A stretch of DNA of 64,000 nucleotides, taken from NCBI GenBank assembly GCA_030583865.1, contig CP129479.1, positions 446,744-510,743 on the forward strand, read 5' to 3'. The stretch is from Thermodesulfobacteriota bacterium. GTDB lineage: Bacteria; Desulfobacterota; GWC2-55-46. Under the pieces are notes generated by a model, which saw only the letters and a list, made by a program, of their open reading frames with translations, made no database searches and was not told the origin of the DNA. The translations under genes and the position numbers were made by a program. Of this stretch, positions 21,339-56,376 are shown one piece after another; within the stretch, counting starts at the first letter, position 1; each line of letters starts with the position of its first letter.

Positions 21339-21353
21339 GCATTGAGGCCCGGC

Positions 21354-22256
21354 ATGCTTAAAAAGAAGAAGATAGGCGTACTCATGGGCGGGACTTCCGA
21401 GGAGAGGGAGATTTCCCTCAAGACCGGCAGGGCCGTCCTGGGCGCGCTCCTTGAAAAGGGCTACAGGGCCGTTGCCATAGACGCTGGAAAAGACCTGCCG
21501 GCCAGGCTCAGGGCCGGGAAGATAGAGGTGGCCTTTATCGCGCTCCACGGTAGACACGGCGAGGACGGCTGCGTGCAGGGCCTCCTCGAGGTCATGGGCA
21601 TACCTTACACCGGCTCCGGCGTAAGGGCCTCTGCAATGGCCATGGACAAGGCGGTCGCCAAGAAGGTGATGGAGAGCCACAATGTTTCGACCCCGAAGTC
21701 CCTTGTCCATGACGGAAAGAGCGCCGTCACGCTCAGGCCCCCGCTCGTCGTAAAGCCCGCGTGCCAGGGCTCGGCGATAGGCGTGAGCATCGTAAAAGGA
21801 AGGTCCGGGCTCAAAAGGGCGCTTGAGCTCGCCGGCAGCTTCGGGGGCGGCGTGCTCGTCGAGAAGTATATAGAGGGAAGGGAAATTACGATAGGCATAC
21901 TGGACGGCGCGGTCCTTCCGACCATTGAGATAAGGCCCAGGAAGGGCTTTTACGATTACAGGGCCAAGTACACGAAGGGCATGACCGATTTCCTGGTCCC
22001 TGCGCCGATCCCGAAGGCTGTCGAAAGAAGGGCGGCCAAGGAGGCCCTTGCCGCCTACCGGGCGCTCGGGTGCTCCGGCGCAGCCAGGGTGGACGTGATG
22101 CTCGGCAAAACCGGGACCCCTTATGTGCTGGAGGTCAACACGGTCCCGGGCATGACGGAGCTGAGCCTCCTTCCGAGGGCTGCGGAGGCGGCGGGCATGG
22201 ACTATCCCGCGCTCGTGGAAAAGATACTGAGGGGCGCCGGGCTTAATAAGTTCTGA
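21354..22256 (+). CDS. ddl: D-alanine:D-alanine ligase
   Basis: The product has 300 residues from ATG 21354 (a TTG at 21342 is also in frame). It is an ATP-grasp enzyme: GVLMGGTSEEREISL, ALHGRHGEDGCVQG, YTGSGVRASAMAMDK, VKPACQGSAIGVSIV and the C-terminal metal-binding EVNTVPGMTE. It supplies D-Ala-D-Ala to MurF. Its TGA shares bases with the ftsQ ATG (TGATG). Two more distant Ddl-like ATP-grasp genes occur at 50947-53000. Confidence 0.97.
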   Translation: MLKKKKIGVLMGGTSEEREISLKTGRAVLGALLEKGYRAVAIDAGKDLPARLRAGKIEVAFIALHGRHGEDGCVQGLLEVMGIPYTGSGVRASAMAMDKAVAKKVMESHNVSTPKSLVHDGKSAVTLRPPLVVKPACQGSAIGVSIVKGRSGLKRALELAGSFGGGVLVEKYIEGREITIGILDGAVLPTIEIRPRKGFYDYRAKYTKGMTDFLVPAPIPKAVERRAAKEALAAYRALGCSGAARVDVMLGKTGTPYVLEVNTVPGMTELSLLPRAAEAAGMDYPALVEKILRGAGLNKF

Positions 22257-49228: not shown

Positions 49229-50164
49229 ATGACCGTTAAGAGAAAGGCCAGCCCGGCCGAGGCGATGTTCAACTTCGGCGGGGTTTCAAGCGAGGTGTTC
49301 GAGGGGAAAAAGCCCCGTTATTCGGTGCTGCCGGTCCCCTATGACCTTACGGCCTCGTACATAAGCGGCATGAGGGGCGGCCCAAGGGCCATAATCGACG
49401 CCTCCACCCACATGGAGCTCTATGACGAAGAGCTCGGCTGCGAGCCGTACGAAGCCGGGATAGAGACCCTGCCCCAGCTTGAGGCCACGGCGCTCGGGCC
49501 GGAGGAGATGATACGGAGGGTCAGGGAGTCGGTCGCCTCCATCCTGGACGAGGGCAAGGTGCCCGTAATGCTCGGAGGCGAGCATTCGATAACGCTCGGG
49601 CTCGTGCAGGCACTCCTGGAAAGATACCCCGGCATGTCGGTCCTGCAGCTCGACGCCCATGCCGATATGAGGGACTCCTACCAGGACACCCCTTTCAACC
49701 ACGCCTGCGTCGCCAGGAGGATATCCGAGCTCTGCCCCATAGTCCAGGTGGGGATAAGGAGCCTTTCGGCGGACGAGGCCGCGTTTCTCAAAGGTGAAAG
49801 AAAGGCGGGCAGGAAGGCCGGGACGCGCATAAAGACGTTCACCGCGCTCGATGTGCTGAAGGGCGTAAGCCCGAAGGCCATAGCCTCAAGCCTGACCAAT
49901 GACGTCTGCATCACCATCGACCTGGACGTCTTCGACCCCTCGATAATGCCGGCAACCGGCACTCCCGAGCCCGGCGGGCTCGGATGGTACAACGTCCTGG
50001 ATGTCGTTAGGGAAGCCGTCTCGAAAAAGAAGGTGGTGGGGTTCGACGTCGTCGAGCTCTGCCCGCTTCCGGGCAACATAGCGCCGGATTTCCTGGCCGC
50101 TAAACTCGTATACAAGATAATGGGCTACATGAACCGCGGCAGGAGGAGGCAGCGCCTGCCTTAA
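49229..50164 (+). CDS. speB: Agmatinase (ureohydrolase family)
   Basis: The product has 311 residues. All six manganese ligands of the ureohydrolase fold are visible: H119 in GGEHS, D142-A-H144-A-D146, and D231-L-D233 in [17 protein letters not shown] favours agmatinase over arginase. It converts agmatine to putrescine and urea. A pyruvoyl-dependent arginine decarboxylase follows 65 bp downstream, so the two genes give arginine to agmatine to putrescine. GGCGGAGAA precedes the ATG. Confidence 0.93.
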
Positions 50165-50229: not shown

Positions 50230-50775
50230 ATGTTCGTTCCGAAAAGGGTGTTTTTTACAAAAGGCGTAGGGATACACAAGGAAGAACTCACGTCTTTCGA
50301 GCTTGCGTTGAGGGACGCGGGGATAGAGAAGTTCAACCTGGTGCAGGTCTCCAGCATTTTCCCGCCTGCAGCCAAGATAGTGCCCAAGACAGTAGGGCTC
50401 AAGAAGCTGTCCCCCGGCCAGATCGTCTTCTGCGTCATGAGCAGGCTCTCGAGCAACGAGCCCAGGAGGCTCCTTGCGGCCTCGGTCGGCTGCGCGATAC
50501 CGATGGACAGGAAGCTATACGGCTATCTCAGCGAGCACCACGCCTACGGTGAGACCGACACCGCAGCGGGCGACTACGCCGAGGACCTTGCGGCCGCGAT
50601 GCTCGCCTCGACGCTCGGCATAGAGCTGGACGAGAACCTCGGCTGGGACGAGAAAAAAGAGATATACAGGATAAGCGACAAGATAGTAAAGACGTCCAAC
50701 GTAACGCAGTCGGCGATAGTAAAGAGCGACGGGAAGTTCACCACCGTCGTGGCCGCCGCGGTCCTCATACCTTAA
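50230..50775 (+). CDS. Pyruvoyl-dependent arginine decarboxylase
   Basis: The product has 181 residues. The self-cleavage site is VSSIFPP with Ser41-Ser42; cleavage between them yields the beta chain and an alpha chain with an N-terminal pyruvoyl group. [19 protein letters not shown] and [13 protein letters not shown] match the PvlArgDC family known from methanogens, Chlamydia and many environmental bacteria. It makes agmatine, the substrate of the upstream agmatinase. No other polyamine gene is adjacent; an ATP-grasp cluster follows after 171 bp. Confidence 0.93.
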
Positions 50776-50946: not shown

Positions 50947-51960
50947 ATGAAAATCGCACTTACCTATAACCTCAAGAAAGATCTCGGGGAGGCGCAGCGC
51001 CTCCCCGAGGACTTCTACGCCGAATGTGACGAGCCCGAGACCGTCTTCGCCGTCCGGGACGCTTTGGCCGGGCGCCACGGGGAGGTCCTCATGGTCGAGG
51101 CGGACGAGGACGCGTTCGAGAAGCTCAGGCGCGAGAGGCCGGACATCGTCTTCAACATGGCCGAGGGGCTCTGGGGCGAGAGCAGGGAATCGCAGATACC
51201 GGCCATGCTCGAAATGCTCCGGATCCCGTATACCGGCTCGAACCCGCTCACGCTGGGCCTCTGCCTCAACAAGGCGCGCGCCAAGGAGGTGCTGGCCTAT
51301 TACGGCATCCCTACCGCAAGGTTCGTTGTCGCGCGGACGAACGGACTCGAAATCCACAGGCTACTCTCATTCCCCATGATAGTGAAGCCGCTTTTCGAGG
51401 GGTCGAGCAAGGGAATAAAGAACGACTCCATAGTATCCGGGCCCGAGGAGCTCGAACGGAAGGTCGCTTCCGTTCTGGAGGAATACTCCCAGCCGGCCCT
51501 GGTCGAGGAATACCTCCCGGGACGCGAGTTCACGGTGGCCCTAATGGGGAACGGGAGCAATATCAAGGTGCTCCCCATAGTCGAGATAAACTACTCGGCC
51601 CTGCCTGCCGGCGTAAACCACATCTATTCCTACGAGGCCAAATGGGTGCTCGACACCCCGGATGCCCCCCTCGACATATTCAACTGCCCTGCTGACATAC
51701 CCGAAAGGCTGAAGACCGCCATAGAGGCCGTCTCAAGGGACGCCTTTACGGCGCTCGACGTCAAGGACTGGTGCAGGATAGACGTGAGGCTCGATACCTC
51801 CGGCCTGCCGCACGTAATAGAGCTCAACCCGCTCCCTGGGATACTCATGGACCCAAAGTGCAATTCCTGCTTCCCGAAGGCCGCCCGGGCCGCTGGCATG
51901 GACTTCAGCACACTGGTGAACGGGGTCCTCGACGCGGCGCGCGGGAGGTACGGGGTATGA
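50947..51960 (+). CDS. Ddl-like ATP-grasp ligase A
   Basis: The product has 337 residues. It has the D-Ala-D-Ala ligase layout: FNMAEGLWGESRESQIPAML, PYTGSNPLTLGLCLNKA, IVKPLFEGSSKGI (ATP grasp), VEEYLPGREFTV, SYEAKW and the metal-binding RIDVRLD with ELNPLPG. The true cell-wall ddl is at 21354, so this copy has probably specialised to join other amino acids or amines. Its stop overlaps the start of a second ATP-grasp gene. Substrates cannot be read from sequence. Confidence 0.85.
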   Translation: MKIALTYNLKKDLGEAQRLPEDFYAECDEPETVFAVRDALAGRHGEVLMVEADEDAFEKLRRERPDIVFNMAEGLWGESRESQIPAMLEMLRIPYTGSNPLTLGLCLNKARAKEVLAYYGIPTARFVVARTNGLEIHRLLSFPMIVKPLFEGSSKGIKNDSIVSGPEELERKVASVLEEYSQPALVEEYLPGREFTVALMGNGSNIKVLPIVEINYSALPAGVNHIYSYEAKWVLDTPDAPLDIFNCPADIPERLKTAIEAVSRDAFTALDVKDWCRIDVRLDTSGLPHVIELNPLPGILMDPKCNSCFPKAARAAGMDFSTLVNGVLDAARGRYGV

Positions 51961-53000
51961 GCCCCGCCAGGGTGAAGATAGTCTTCAACGATGACGGTAG
52001 CGATACCTACACCCTCGGCGAAAAAACAGTAGACCTGGATAACATACTTACGACCGTAAGCGACGTCGAGGGCGCGCTCCGCTCGAAGGGGTACGAGACC
52101 GCAAGGGTGCCCTTGAGGAGGCGCGAAGACCTCGAGCGGTTTACGAAGGAGATACGGGACCCGGAGGCGGTCGTCTTCAACCTCTGCGAGGGTGCGTTCA
52201 ACAGGAGCTCGCTCGAGATGCACGTTGCCGCCCTCCTCGAGCTCCACGGAGCGAGGTTCACGGGCAGCGGACCGCTGACGCTCGGGCTCGCGCTGGACAA
52301 GGGGCTTACAAAAGACATACTCTCGAGGAGGGGCGTGCCCACCCCAGGGTACGCGGTCATGGCCGAGGCGTCCGGGAAGACCGGGGAGCTCGAGTTCCCG
52401 CTCATCGTCAAGCCGCTACGCGAGGACGCGAGCATCGGAATAGATTCCGGGGCCGTCGTCGAGAGCCCGGTGGAATTAAGGGAAAGAGTCGACCACATAC
52501 TCTCGAACTACGCCCAGCCCGCTATAGTCGAGGAGTACGTGGACGGCAGGGAGTTCAATATCGCCGTCATGGGGAACGGGAACAGCAGGCGCGCCCTGCC
52601 CCCTTCCGAGATACTCTTCGTCGATTTCCCCGAGGGCAAACCCAAGATATGCTGCTACGAGGCTAAGTGGGTCGAAGAGAGCCCTTTTTACCGCAAGACC
52701 GTGCCTTCCTGCCCGGCGGAAATACCCGAGAAGCTCAAGGTAGAGCTCCAGGCGGTCGCGCTCAAGGCCTACGGCATGATGGGGTGCAGGGACTATGCCA
52801 GGGTGGACATGAGGCTCGGGAAGGACGGCAAGGCCAAGGTCCTGGAGGTCAACCCAAACCCGGACATATCCTCGGACGCGGGGTTTGCGAGGGCCGCAAA
52901 GGCCGCCGGCCTTGATTACCCGGACCTCATAGCCGCCATAGTGGATGCGGCCGTGTCGAGGTACGCGCCGCAGGCCGGAATGGCCTCGGGAAGGACATGA
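51957..53000 (+). CDS. Ddl-like ATP-grasp ligase B
   Basis: The product has 347 residues from the ATG in the ATGA overlap with ligase A (the frame stays open upstream but is not coding there). It has VVFNLCEGAFNRSSLEMHVAA, RFTGSGPLTLGLALDKGLTK, IVKPLREDASIGI, VEEYVDGREFNIAVMG, CYEAKW, RVDMRLG and EVNPNPD. It is a diverged paralogue of ligase A. Two coupled ATP-grasp ligases, then an acetyltransferase and a methyltransferase, suggest stepwise synthesis of a small peptide or amide-type metabolite (inference). Confidence 0.85.
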   Translation: MSPARVKIVFNDDGSDTYTLGEKTVDLDNILTTVSDVEGALRSKGYETARVPLRRREDLERFTKEIRDPEAVVFNLCEGAFNRSSLEMHVAALLELHGARFTGSGPLTLGLALDKGLTKDILSRRGVPTPGYAVMAEASGKTGELEFPLIVKPLREDASIGIDSGAVVESPVELRERVDHILSNYAQPAIVEEYVDGREFNIAVMGNGNSRRALPPSEILFVDFPEGKPKICCYEAKWVEESPFYRKTVPSCPAEIPEKLKVELQAVALKAYGMMGCRDYARVDMRLGKDGKAKVLEVNPNPDISSDAGFARAAKAAGLDYPDLIAAIVDAAVSRYAPQAGMASGRT

Positions 53001-53512
53001 GCGGGAGCGGAGGCGGGATAACCGTGAGGAAGACGCTTCCCGGGGACAGGCCCGCCCTGGTCGACATTATAGAAAACTCGGAGAACCTGAGCAGGGAGGA
53101 GATGGATTGCGCGGCGGAACTCCTTGATATATACTTTAAAAACCCGCTTGAGACCGATTACCTCTTTCTTACGGCGGCAGACCCCTCCTCCTCTCCCGCG
53201 GGTTACGCCTGCTACGGGAAAAGGCCGCTAACGGACGCCGTATATGACATCTACTGGATCGTGGTGGACAGCCGCCAAAGGCGCGGCGGCATAGGGACCA
53301 GGCTGATCGAGGAGCTTGAAAAACTGCTCAGGGAAGAGGGGGCCCGGATGCTGGTGGCCGAAACATCGGGGCTCCCGGCCTATGAGGCCGCGAGGAGGCT
53401 CTATCTCAGGAACGGTTTCCGCGAAGAGGCCCGGATAAGGGAGTTCTACAAGCCCGGAGACGACATCGTCTTCTATACCAAGCGCTTACAAAAAACAAAC
53501 GGGGACGCCTGA
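52997..53512 (+). CDS. GNAT family N-acetyltransferase
   Basis: The product has 171 residues. The acetyl-CoA motif is RRGGIGTRLIEELEKLL at about 96-112, preceded by DIYWIVVDSRQR and followed by RRLYLRNGFREEARI, typical of GNAT enzymes. It starts inside the stop codon of ligase B (ATGA), so it belongs to the same operon. A likely job is N-acylation of the ligase product or its amine precursor, but the substrate is unknown. Confidence 0.85.
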   Translation: MSGSGGGITVRKTLPGDRPALVDIIENSENLSREEMDCAAELLDIYFKNPLETDYLFLTAADPSSSPAGYACYGKRPLTDAVYDIYWIVVDSRQRRGGIGTRLIEELEKLLREEGARMLVAETSGLPAYEAARRLYLRNGFREEARIREFYKPGDDIVFYTKRLQKTNGDA

Positions 53513-53513
53513 A

Positions 53514-54131
53514 TTGGAGCTGGAGAGCATAAAGAAAATCTACGCCGGTTATTCGAACGTCTATGACGTCCTTTTCAAGGGGATATTCTATCCGAGGATA
53601 AAGCACGCCATCAACTATATGGACATCAAGCCCGGGGACAGGGTGCTCGACGTCGGTGTCGGGACAGGCCTCTCCCTTTCGGAGTTCCCGGGCTGCTGCA
53701 AGGTGGTGGGGATAGACCTCTCCACGGCCATGCTCAAAAAGGCCAGGGACAAGATACGGAAGCACGGGCTCGACCACATAAACGTCATGAGCATGGACGC
53801 GATGAGCATAGGCTTCAAGGACGACAGCTTCGACAAGGTATTCATCTCGCACGTGGTGAGCGTCGTGCCTGACCCCTACAAGCTCATGTCCGAGGTAAGG
53901 CGGGTCTGCAAGAAGGGCGGCCAGGTGGTGATAGTGAACCACTTCAAGTCGAGCAACAAGGTCGTGGAGGTCGTCGAGAAGCTCATAAACCCCGTCTGCA
54001 AGAAGATAGGGTGGAGGTCGGACCTCTGCCTCAACGAGTTCATAAACCGCTCGGGACTCAACGTCAGGCAGAAGTACATGCTCAAGAAACTGGACTTCTG
54101 GCACATACTCTTCGCAACGAACGAGAAATAA
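53514..54131 (+). CDS. Class I SAM-dependent methyltransferase (PmtA-like)
   Basis: The product has 205 residues from a TTG start, one base after the GNAT stop. Motif I is VLDVGVGTGLSLSEF and motif II GIDLSTAMLKKA. The block ISHVVSVVPDPYKLMSEVRRV, then VVIVNHF, resembles phosphatidylethanolamine N-methyltransferases of the PmtA type, though small-molecule N-methyltransferases share it. It is the last gene of the ATP-grasp group. Methylation of an amine in the cluster's product or of a phospholipid head group are both possible. Confidence 0.83.
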   Translation: MELESIKKIYAGYSNVYDVLFKGIFYPRIKHAINYMDIKPGDRVLDVGVGTGLSLSEFPGCCKVVGIDLSTAMLKKARDKIRKHGLDHINVMSMDAMSIGFKDDSFDKVFISHVVSVVPDPYKLMSEVRRVCKKGGQVVIVNHFKSSNKVVEVVEKLINPVCKKIGWRSDLCLNEFINRSGLNVRQKYMLKKLDFWHILFATNEK

Positions 54132-54144
54132 GCCCCGGGGGCAT

Positions 54145-54615
54145 TTGCGTTCCAAGGACAATATCCTATCCGGCCATTCGATCCAGCCGATGTCCTCCGG
54201 GGACCTCGAAGAAGTCCTCAGGATAGAGAAGGCCTCTTTCCCGAAGCCCTGGACCAGGGGCATGTTCGAAGGGGAGATCAAGAACCCGGTCTCGTTCGCG
54301 TACACCCTGCGGGTGCGCGCCGAAGAGAGGGAAGAGATCGCGGCATATATCGTCTTCTGGATAGTCCACGGAGAGGCCCACATATTGAACATCGCGGTCT
54401 CCCCGGCCCTCCGTGGCAGGGGGGTGGCCTCCAAGCTCCTCGGCCTCATGCTCCAGCTCATGAAGCGGAACATGGTCTACGAGGTCTTCCTCGAGGTCAG
54501 GGTTTCGAACGACGCCGCCAGGAGCCTCTATAAGAGATTCGGGTTCAGGGAAGCGTTCGTCAGGAAAAACTACTACGGGGACGAGGACGCGATAGTCATG
54601 GTCCTCGACCTGTGA
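54145..54615 (+). CDS. rimI: Ribosomal protein S18 alanine N-acetyltransferase RimI
   Basis: The product has 156 residues from a TTG at 54145; ATG 54190 is an alternative but would cut into the first strand. IQPMSSGDLEEVLRIEKASFPKPW and ILNIAVSPALRGRGVASKLL (acetyl-CoA loop), then FLEVRVSNDAARSLYKRFGF, match RimI. It acetylates the N-terminal Ala of S18; in many bacteria it is linked to tRNA t6A genes, which are not seen here. It sits 14 bp after the methyltransferase gene. Confidence 0.85.
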   Translation: MRSKDNILSGHSIQPMSSGDLEEVLRIEKASFPKPWTRGMFEGEIKNPVSFAYTLRVRAEEREEIAAYIVFWIVHGEAHILNIAVSPALRGRGVASKLLGLMLQLMKRNMVYEVFLEVRVSNDAARSLYKRFGFREAFVRKNYYGDEDAIVMVLDL

Positions 54616-54637: not shown

Positions 54638-55456
54638 TTGGAAATAAAAGCTGAGATAATATATAACGACAGGATGGCCAAGGGGTACTTCAAGCTCGGG
54701 CTTGCTTGCGCGACCCCCGAGGTGAAGCCCGGCCAGTTCGTGATGCTCAGGGTCTCGGACGGGCTTGACCCGCTCTTGAGGAGGCCTTTCGGCATCTATC
54801 GGATGCTTGGGCGTACTCTCGGGCGGGAGACCGGGGCCAGGGGCGCGTCCTCGAAGAGGAAGGGCATCGAGGTCCTCTACAGGGTGGTGGGAAAGGGCAC
54901 GGCCATACTTTCTGAAAGAAGGCCCGGCGAGACGCTCGGGGTGCTGGGCCCGCTCGGGAACGGCTTTCCGGACACGCCCGAGGGCAGCAGTCCGGTGCTC
55001 GTCGCGGGCGGCATGGGGATAGCCCCTCTTTACCTCCTGGCAAAGAGGCTCGGAGGGGGGACGCTGCTTTTCGGGGCGCGCTCAAAGGCAGAGACGGCTC
55101 TCCTTAAGGATTTCAGGGGACTCGGCCTCAGGATAAAGACCGCGACCGAGGACGGGAGCGCCGGCATAAGGGGGCTCGTGACCGGCCTCCTTGAAGACGA
55201 GCTTACGCCGGAATCTATTGTATACGCGTGCGGCCCGGTCGGGATGCTGAAAGCCGCGGCTGCCATTTCAAGGAAGGCCGGGGCGCGCTGCCTCGTCTCC
55301 CTTGAGCGCTCGATGGCCTGCGGCATAGGGGTGTGCCTGGGGTGCGCGGTCAGGGCAAAGGCGCACAAGGAAGAGAAGGAGAACCGGTTTTACAAGATGG
55401 TCTGCTCTGACGGGCCGGTCTTCCGGGGCGAGGAGATAGATTGGGACCTGTTGTGA
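54638..55456 (+). CDS. pyrK: Dihydroorotate dehydrogenase electron transfer subunit PyrK
   Basis: The product has 272 residues from a TTG start. The FAD motif RRPF is at 49-52, [11 protein letters not shown] is the NAD-binding start, and the [2Fe-2S] ligands are Cys228, 233, 236 and 256 in the usual CxxxxCxxC...C spacing. PyrK passes electrons from dihydroorotate oxidation by PyrD to NAD. Its stop overlaps the pyrD GTG start, and the two form the class 1B enzyme. Confidence 0.95.
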
Positions 55457-56376
55457 AGAAGACAAAGGCCGGGGCCGAGGTGACTATCGCGGGCTTGAAA
55501 TTCAAAAACCCGGTGATGACCGCCTCGGGAACCTTCGGGTACGGGGTCGAGTTCGCGCCTTATATGGACCTCGGCAGGCTCGGAGGCATAGTGGTCAAGG
55601 GACTCTCCCTCTACCCGAGGCAGGGGAACCCCGGGCCGCGTATAGCCGAAACACCTTGCGGGATGCTGAACGCCATAGGCCTGCAGAACGTGGGCGTGGA
55701 CGATTTCATCGAAAAGAAGCTTCCGCTAATCCGTACAGCCGACACGCACGTAATAGCGAACATCTTCGGCGAAACTGTCGAGGACTATGTGGAGGTCGCA
55801 AGGAGGCTCGACGGCGCTGAAGGGGTCGCGGCTCTTGAGGTGAACATCTCCTGCCCCAACGTCAAAAAGGGCGGCATCGTCTTCGGCACCGACCCGCAGG
55901 AGGCCTTCAAGGTGGTCTCCGCGGTACGCAAAGCCACGAGGCTCCCCGTCATAACGAAGCTCTCGCCGAACGTAACCGACATAAAGGTGATGGTAAAGGC
56001 CGCGGAGGACGGCGGCACGGACGCGGTCTCGCTCATCAATACCATCACCGGCATGGTTATCGACGTGGAGAGGAGAAGGCCCGTCCTTGCGACCGCGACC
56101 GGCGGGCTCTCGGGACCGGCCATAAGGCCCATAGCGGTACGCATGGTCTGGCAGGCGGCGCAGGCCGCAAGCGTCCCGGTAATCGGCATGGGCGGCATAA
56201 TGACGGCAAGGGACGCCCTCGAATTCATGATAGCCGGCGCCACTGCAGTCCAGGTCGGCACCGCGAGCTTCATCGAGCCGGAAGCCGCAGTCAAGGTGGC
56301 CGAAGGCATAGAAGAGTACCTCTCCAAAAACGAAACCGACGTTCAAGACCTCATAGGCTCGTTAAGGCTCGCCTGA
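55453..56376 (+). CDS. pyrD: Dihydroorotate dehydrogenase (class 1B), catalytic subunit
   Basis: The product has 307 residues from GTG 55453, in a GTGA overlap with pyrK; TTG 55441 is an alternative. [25 protein letters not shown], the catalytic Cys134 in [11 protein letters not shown], and [16 protein letters not shown] are class 1 features; a Cys rather than Ser base fits class 1. It oxidises dihydroorotate to orotate in pyrimidine synthesis in the cytoplasm. Confidence 0.97.

Follow-up and report, generated by a model that had tools for sequence, protein, structure and literature searches.

Ligases of the Ddl fold, named after D-alanine-D-alanine ligase (Ddl, EC 6.3.2.4), serve cell-wall synthesis, and EpmB, a relative of lysine 2,3-aminomutase (LAM), serves the modification of EF-P. 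In the AblA/AblB pathway, which leads to N-epsilon-acetyl-beta-lysine, a lysine 2,3-aminomutase is instead coupled to a GNAT acetyltransferase; this combination is a known osmolyte route of methanogens and has been proposed to operate in Pelobacter (PMC3543383). The locus described here lies in a window of 64 kb (the whole stretch of DNA that was analysed) and encodes two Ddl-like ATP-grasp ligases, A1 and A2, together with a GNAT. Like the AblA/AblB pathway, the system brings together a lysine 2,3-aminomutase and a GNAT acetyltransferase, but its GNAT comes from another, short family, two ligases are added and AblB was not found in the window's genome. A comparable difference separates it from the Clostridium subterminale LAM (2a5h): both of the substrate-binding aspartates are conserved in the LAM of the window's genome, whereas in many phyla the operon partners of the homologue are A1, A2 and the GNAT and not ablB. 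We rate the whole as a probable system of ATP-grasp small-peptide synthesis. No description of an A1-A2-GNAT-LAM cluster was found in the literature searched, most subscription journals being outside the reach of that search, and an earlier mention is possible.

Organization of the locus

The cassette, as we term it, consists of three genes on the forward strand: A1, a ligase of the Ddl fold (50947-51960; Pfam PF07478, Dala_Dala_lig_C, 1.4e-33), A2, a diverged Ddl-like ligase (51957-53000; PF07478, 8.9e-33), and the GNAT N-acetyltransferase (52997-53512; Acetyltransf_1, 2.5e-12). A SAM methyltransferase (MT) with a TTG start follows on the same strand (53514-54131; Methyltransf_11, 8.7e-24). 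The tight packing of these four genes, pointed out in the preliminary description, agrees with both the coordinates and the sequence: A1 and A2 overlap by an ATGA (51957-51960), as do A2 and the GNAT gene (52997-53000), and a single base (53513) lies between the end of the GNAT gene and the start of MT. That description had called MT PmtA-like, a reading that has weakened, as NF045882 demands 390 bits and MT reaches 139.9.

The flanking genes, all again on the forward strand, constitute what we refer to as the backbone. An agmatinase (49229-50164; TIGR01230, 225.4 bits, cut-off 174.3) and a pyruvoyl-dependent arginine decarboxylase (ADC; 50230-50775; NF009064, 228.7 bits, cut-off 207) precede A1, as had been noted earlier, with both families above their curated cut-offs and 171 bp between ADC and A1. 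On the other side lie RimI, the ribosomal protein S18 alanine N-acetyltransferase (54145-54615; TIGR01575, 123.8 bits, cut-off 86.4), a PyrK-like electron-transfer subunit of dihydroorotate dehydrogenase (54638-55456) and the dihydroorotate dehydrogenase PyrD (55441-56376), the last identified by its sequence and its position behind PyrK; all three are syntenic in relatives, whether or not these have the cassette. Scans for promoters and terminators gave matches at chance level.

Sequence features of the ligases and the acetyltransferase

The A1 (n=71) and A2 (n=65) proteins were aligned to E. coli DdlB, whose residue numbers are used throughout. K97, K144, E180, E187, K215, R255, D257, E270 and N272 are invariant in all 71 A1 and 65 A2 proteins, so that both ligases should still be capable of the chemistry that involves ATP and magnesium. 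Each aligns with the Ddl family over the greater part of its length. The ATP-grasp fold of Ddl is likewise shared along the whole length of A1, whose model (mean pLDDT 94.1) is closest to P. aeruginosa DdlB (Z 34, 2.3 A, 295 residues). In contrast to Ddl, however, all 136 proteins (71 A1 and 65 A2) have glutamate in place of H63 and tryptophan in place of Y216. A2 further displays S150->A in 63 of its 65 members, and G276->D and L282->G in nearly all 65, while A1 retains S150 along with a glutamate aligned with E15. Thus, as read from the alignment, the ATP-binding residues are preserved and the substrate pockets appear altered in both ligases.

The changes at Y216 and H63 in every member argue that neither A1 nor A2 is an ordinary Ddl. 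Both also fall far short of every curated NCBIfam cut-off listed for Ddl, the best scores being 189 bits for A1 and 150.5 for A2, each against 243. The possibility that either might prove to be a common D-Ala-D-Ala ligase, raised in the preliminary description, is therefore contradicted by score and residues alike, and the same sub-cut-off scores and substrate-residue changes led us to reject an ordinary Ddl duplication. The best family matches would accordingly yield the annotation D-alanine-D-alanine ligase for two proteins that are probably something else. An ordinary ddl is encoded elsewhere in the window, outside the cassette (21342-22256, forward strand), as had been stated, and its equivalents of E15, H63, S150, Y216, R255, N272 and G276 are all canonical. 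In the phylogenetic tree the A1 proteins form one clade (support 79) and the A2 proteins another (support 100), which would fit a divergence of the two older than the spread of the module.

The GNAT model (pLDDT 93.6) has its best solved match in 2r7h (Dde_3044 from Desulfovibrio; TM 0.87/0.94, the latter by target length; 36% identity), a member of the same family within the GNATs (profile E 7.4e-49). The latter is a structural-genomics entry deposited as a 'putative D-alanine N-acetyltransferase', and our literature search found no paper assigning a function to it. Past 2r7h, the fold search recovered generic GNATs that offered no clue to the substrate.

A cassette inserted into a conserved backbone

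We compared the locus with those of 59 relatives. The A1-A2 pair is present and adjacent in about 40 of the 59, and the order A1-A2-GNAT-MT-rimI-pyrK-pyrD recurs in the loci of 20 relatives, with MT missing from one; in those 20 loci ADC precedes A1 wherever the examined stretch extends that far. Profile searches of the 59 genomes recovered the GNAT only from cassette-bearing ones, including G003, where the contig ends inside the GNAT gene. Seven ligase-free relatives (G031, G037, G039, G045, G049, G050 and G052) have ADC and MT adjoining, with a gap of about 75 to 690 bp between them and the same backbone around, in the order recJ-SLT-...-ADC-MT-rimI-pyrK-pyrD. At least 12 relatives have MT but no cassette. 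G046 (locus L050) shows the converse, a cassette that lacks MT: its GNAT gene runs straight into rimI, and no MT was found genome-wide. Throughout the class the block MT-rimI-pyrK-pyrD is conserved, whether the cassette is there or not, MT being 60-99% identical.

Given that the ligases and the GNAT travel together, and that ADC and MT adjoin when they are absent, A1-A2-GNAT comes and goes as one unit, a cassette of three genes set into a backbone that is itself conserved. With the A1-A2 pair adjacent in about 40 relatives and A1-A2-GNAT recurring in several other phyla, the arrangement is far beyond chance. MT and the genes leading from arginine to putrescine seem to neighbour this cassette without being related to it, and MT is probably not part of its pathway; we rejected both MT and ADC as pathway members because they persist, adjoining, in cassette-free loci. 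The cluster of four genes originally envisaged is hence reduced: A1, A2 and the GNAT hold as a conserved unit, the conservation of gene order that was looked for being evident both in these relatives and in several other phyla, whereas MT and ADC drop out, being kept without the cassette and, in the case of MT, absent from G046. The cassette-free relatives represent natural controls.

Linkage to lysine 2,3-aminomutase across phyla

A scan of a collection of 84,980 species' genomes with the A1 alignment yielded at least 562 confirmed relatives, the best 80 of which were analysed. A radical-SAM protein of the LAM family is encoded beside A1 in 54 of these 80 loci, and in 48 of the 54 the genes for A1, A2, the GNAT and LAM are clustered and ADC is absent. 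According to genome records, the 48 belong to Ignavibacteria, Bacteroidota, Kryptonia, Desulfuromonadales, Acidobacteria, Planctomycetota and Auribacterota. Among the same best 80 of at least 562 loci, the commonest order is A1-A2-GNAT-LAM, the gap between the GNAT and LAM genes measures 16-291 bp (49 loci), and those from other phyla have as a rule neither MT nor ADC near the cassette; the genes flanking the four, such as a recG-like helicase, vary by lineage. The same four-gene module in many phyla usually signifies a shared metabolite.

The order ADC-A2-GNAT-LAM-A1 in Nitrospinae (L081) joins the ADC-type and LAM-type arrangements. Four archaeal loci (L123, L126, L127 and L128), counted in the 54, show LAM-A1 with a convergent A2 on the opposite strand and have no GNAT of the cassette family beside them, and a KSB1 locus (L131) has the A1-A2 pair but no LAM next to it.

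In the window's own class, LAM and cassette are unlinked. The single such protein of the window's genome is encoded away from the cassette, in the vicinity of pyrE/pyrF-like genes (G000:C1:38780-39952), and is 69% identical to the LAMs of the Nitrospinae clusters. It obtains 512.5 bits on TIGR03820 (cut-off 525.4; scored on a 355-residue fragment), more than on the models for glutamate aminomutase (460.4) or arginine aminomutase (399.4), and 503 bits against the C. subterminale LAM. Twelve LAMs from the clusters and this genome share an invariant D314 and D351, which align to D293 and D330 of 2a5h, the aspartate pair that binds the side-chain amine of lysine. Model scores and this pair thus favour a LAM over a glutamate aminomutase. 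A whole-genome search for AblB (TIGR03827), which matched in control genomes, found none in the window's genome, implying that beta-lysine would be made there without the standard acetyltransferase at hand.

The presence of LAM nonetheless correlates with that of the cassette: 38 of 42 cassette-positive relatives encode a LAM of this type (identity of 59% or more), against 1 of 12 cassette-negative ones (Fisher p 1.6e-7 with kinship ignored; p 0.17, not significant, within family f4 alone). A first count, made before contig ends and missing loci were examined, had contained eight genomes with LAM and without the pair. The final count leaves out G016, G018, G024 and G051, whose assemblies lack or truncate the locus, as well as G053, which has ADC and MT on different contigs and a LAM at 59%; its 42 positives include G003 and G043, whose contigs end inside the cassette, and three of its 12 negatives (G038, G040 and G042) were called cassette-free from searches alone. 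The four cassette-positive relatives in which no LAM of this type was found have assemblies 79-92% complete, and the cassette-free genome that does have one (64% identity) is G050.

Predicted pathway and alternative explanations

Taken together, these associations make it probable, in our estimate, that A1, A2 and the GNAT, with a separately encoded LAM, synthesize a small N-acetylated product, peptide or amide, based on beta-lysine, most likely an N-acetylated beta-lysine di- or tripeptide. L-lysine would be converted to beta-lysine by LAM, as suggested by its family and the conservation of its substrate residues. One of the ATP-grasp ligases would then turn a carboxylate into an acyl phosphate and couple this with an amine provided by beta-lysine or by a partner amino acid, the second might attach a further residue or work at the other end, also through an acyl phosphate, to give two amide bonds in all, and a free amine would finally be acetylated by the GNAT. 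Such enzymes predict a peptide of a rare amino acid, beta-lysine, produced independently of ribosome and NRPS. The acylated and methylated peptide- or polyamine-amide-like compound of the preliminary description survives in part: an acetylated, peptide-like product is still the best guess, but methylation and the polyamine find no support, MT and ADC being backbone genes.

The products of a LAM and an acetyltransferase can also serve as compatible solutes, as in the methanogen route cited above. Here the GNAT would be a short, unrelated replacement for AblB making N-acetyl-beta-lysine, and the ligases would extend this to a neutral or zwitterionic peptide osmolyte; the presence of LAM and the absence of AblB in the window's genome are consistent with such a role. 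Yet N-epsilon-acetyl-beta-lysine needs neither ligase, no recurring neighbour of the cassette was recognized as a salt-stress or transporter gene, and many hosts come, by their genome records, from groundwater and sediments and not from brines, so that we regard the osmolyte as unlikely. A quite improbable option would have agmatine, putrescine or a related polyamine as the substrate of the ligases and the GNAT, with MT finishing the compound. The tight gene spacing in the window's genome would suit it, as would the presence of ADC beside the cassette in the window's class, the SM23_61 group and Nitrospinae, but it has to contend with the adjoining ADC and MT that persist without the cassette, with the occurrence of the cassette in most phyla without a polyamine gene nearby, and with several relatives in which agmatinase was not found at the locus.

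The parallels with EpmB and with the ligases of cell-wall synthesis raise the further prospect that beta-lysine, or a peptide, is placed onto a protein or a polymer of the cell envelope, in the manner of EF-P beta-lysylation or peptidoglycan cross-bridges. We consider this very improbable: the genes seen to recur next to the cassette in different phyla included no protein target, carrier protein or murein gene, the LAM of the window's genome reaches 243 bits on the EpmB model against a cut-off of 369, and A1 and A2 occur in archaeal loci as well.

Returning to the free acetylated beta-lysine peptide, a wider reading, which we hold tentatively and at somewhat less than even confidence, is that A1-A2-GNAT-LAM constitutes a pathway of ancient origin, shared by many lineages, whose product fulfils a basic role in physiology. 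The peptide might then act as a solute, metal ligand or redox buffer in organisms from Ignavibacteria to Desulfuromonadales and, in part, Bathyarchaeota. Cassette-bearing lineages with named or cultured members include Desulfuromusa kysingii DSM 7343, Stygiobacter electus and Melioribacter.

Variant loci and neighbouring genes

The SM23_61-type Deltaproteobacteria (L070, L072, L075, L076, L083 and L085) display a second variant of the module. They have the order ADC-A1-A2, accompanied by agmatinase wherever the contig extends to it. A SAM methyltransferase different from MT comes next and, in most of these loci, glycosyltransferases; neither GNAT nor LAM was found nearby. A lone A1 is seen in Candidatus Wallbacteria (L088), where a search of 6 kb to each side detected neither A2 nor GNAT nor LAM. 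A fusion of A2 and GNAT in L102 and L104 proved to be apparent only, arising from an ORF in the wrong frame. The hosts of the four archaeal loci are Bathyarchaeota and an uncultured archaeon; a RimI-like GNAT gene stands before LAM in these, and pdxA-like and uroporphyrinogen-decarboxylase-like genes are located upstream in three of them.

Among the relatives, L056, L057, L059, L063 and L064 keep ADC and the cassette but showed no agmatinase at the locus; agmatine may thus have another fate there. A deoxyhypusine-synthase-like gene, exemplified by L056:4186-5220 (PRK00805, 437.7 bits, cut-off 434), has no counterpart at this position in the window, and the only homologue in the window's genome, at 26%, lies at G000:C1:1582065-1582958; in many relatives this gene precedes agmatinase and ADC.
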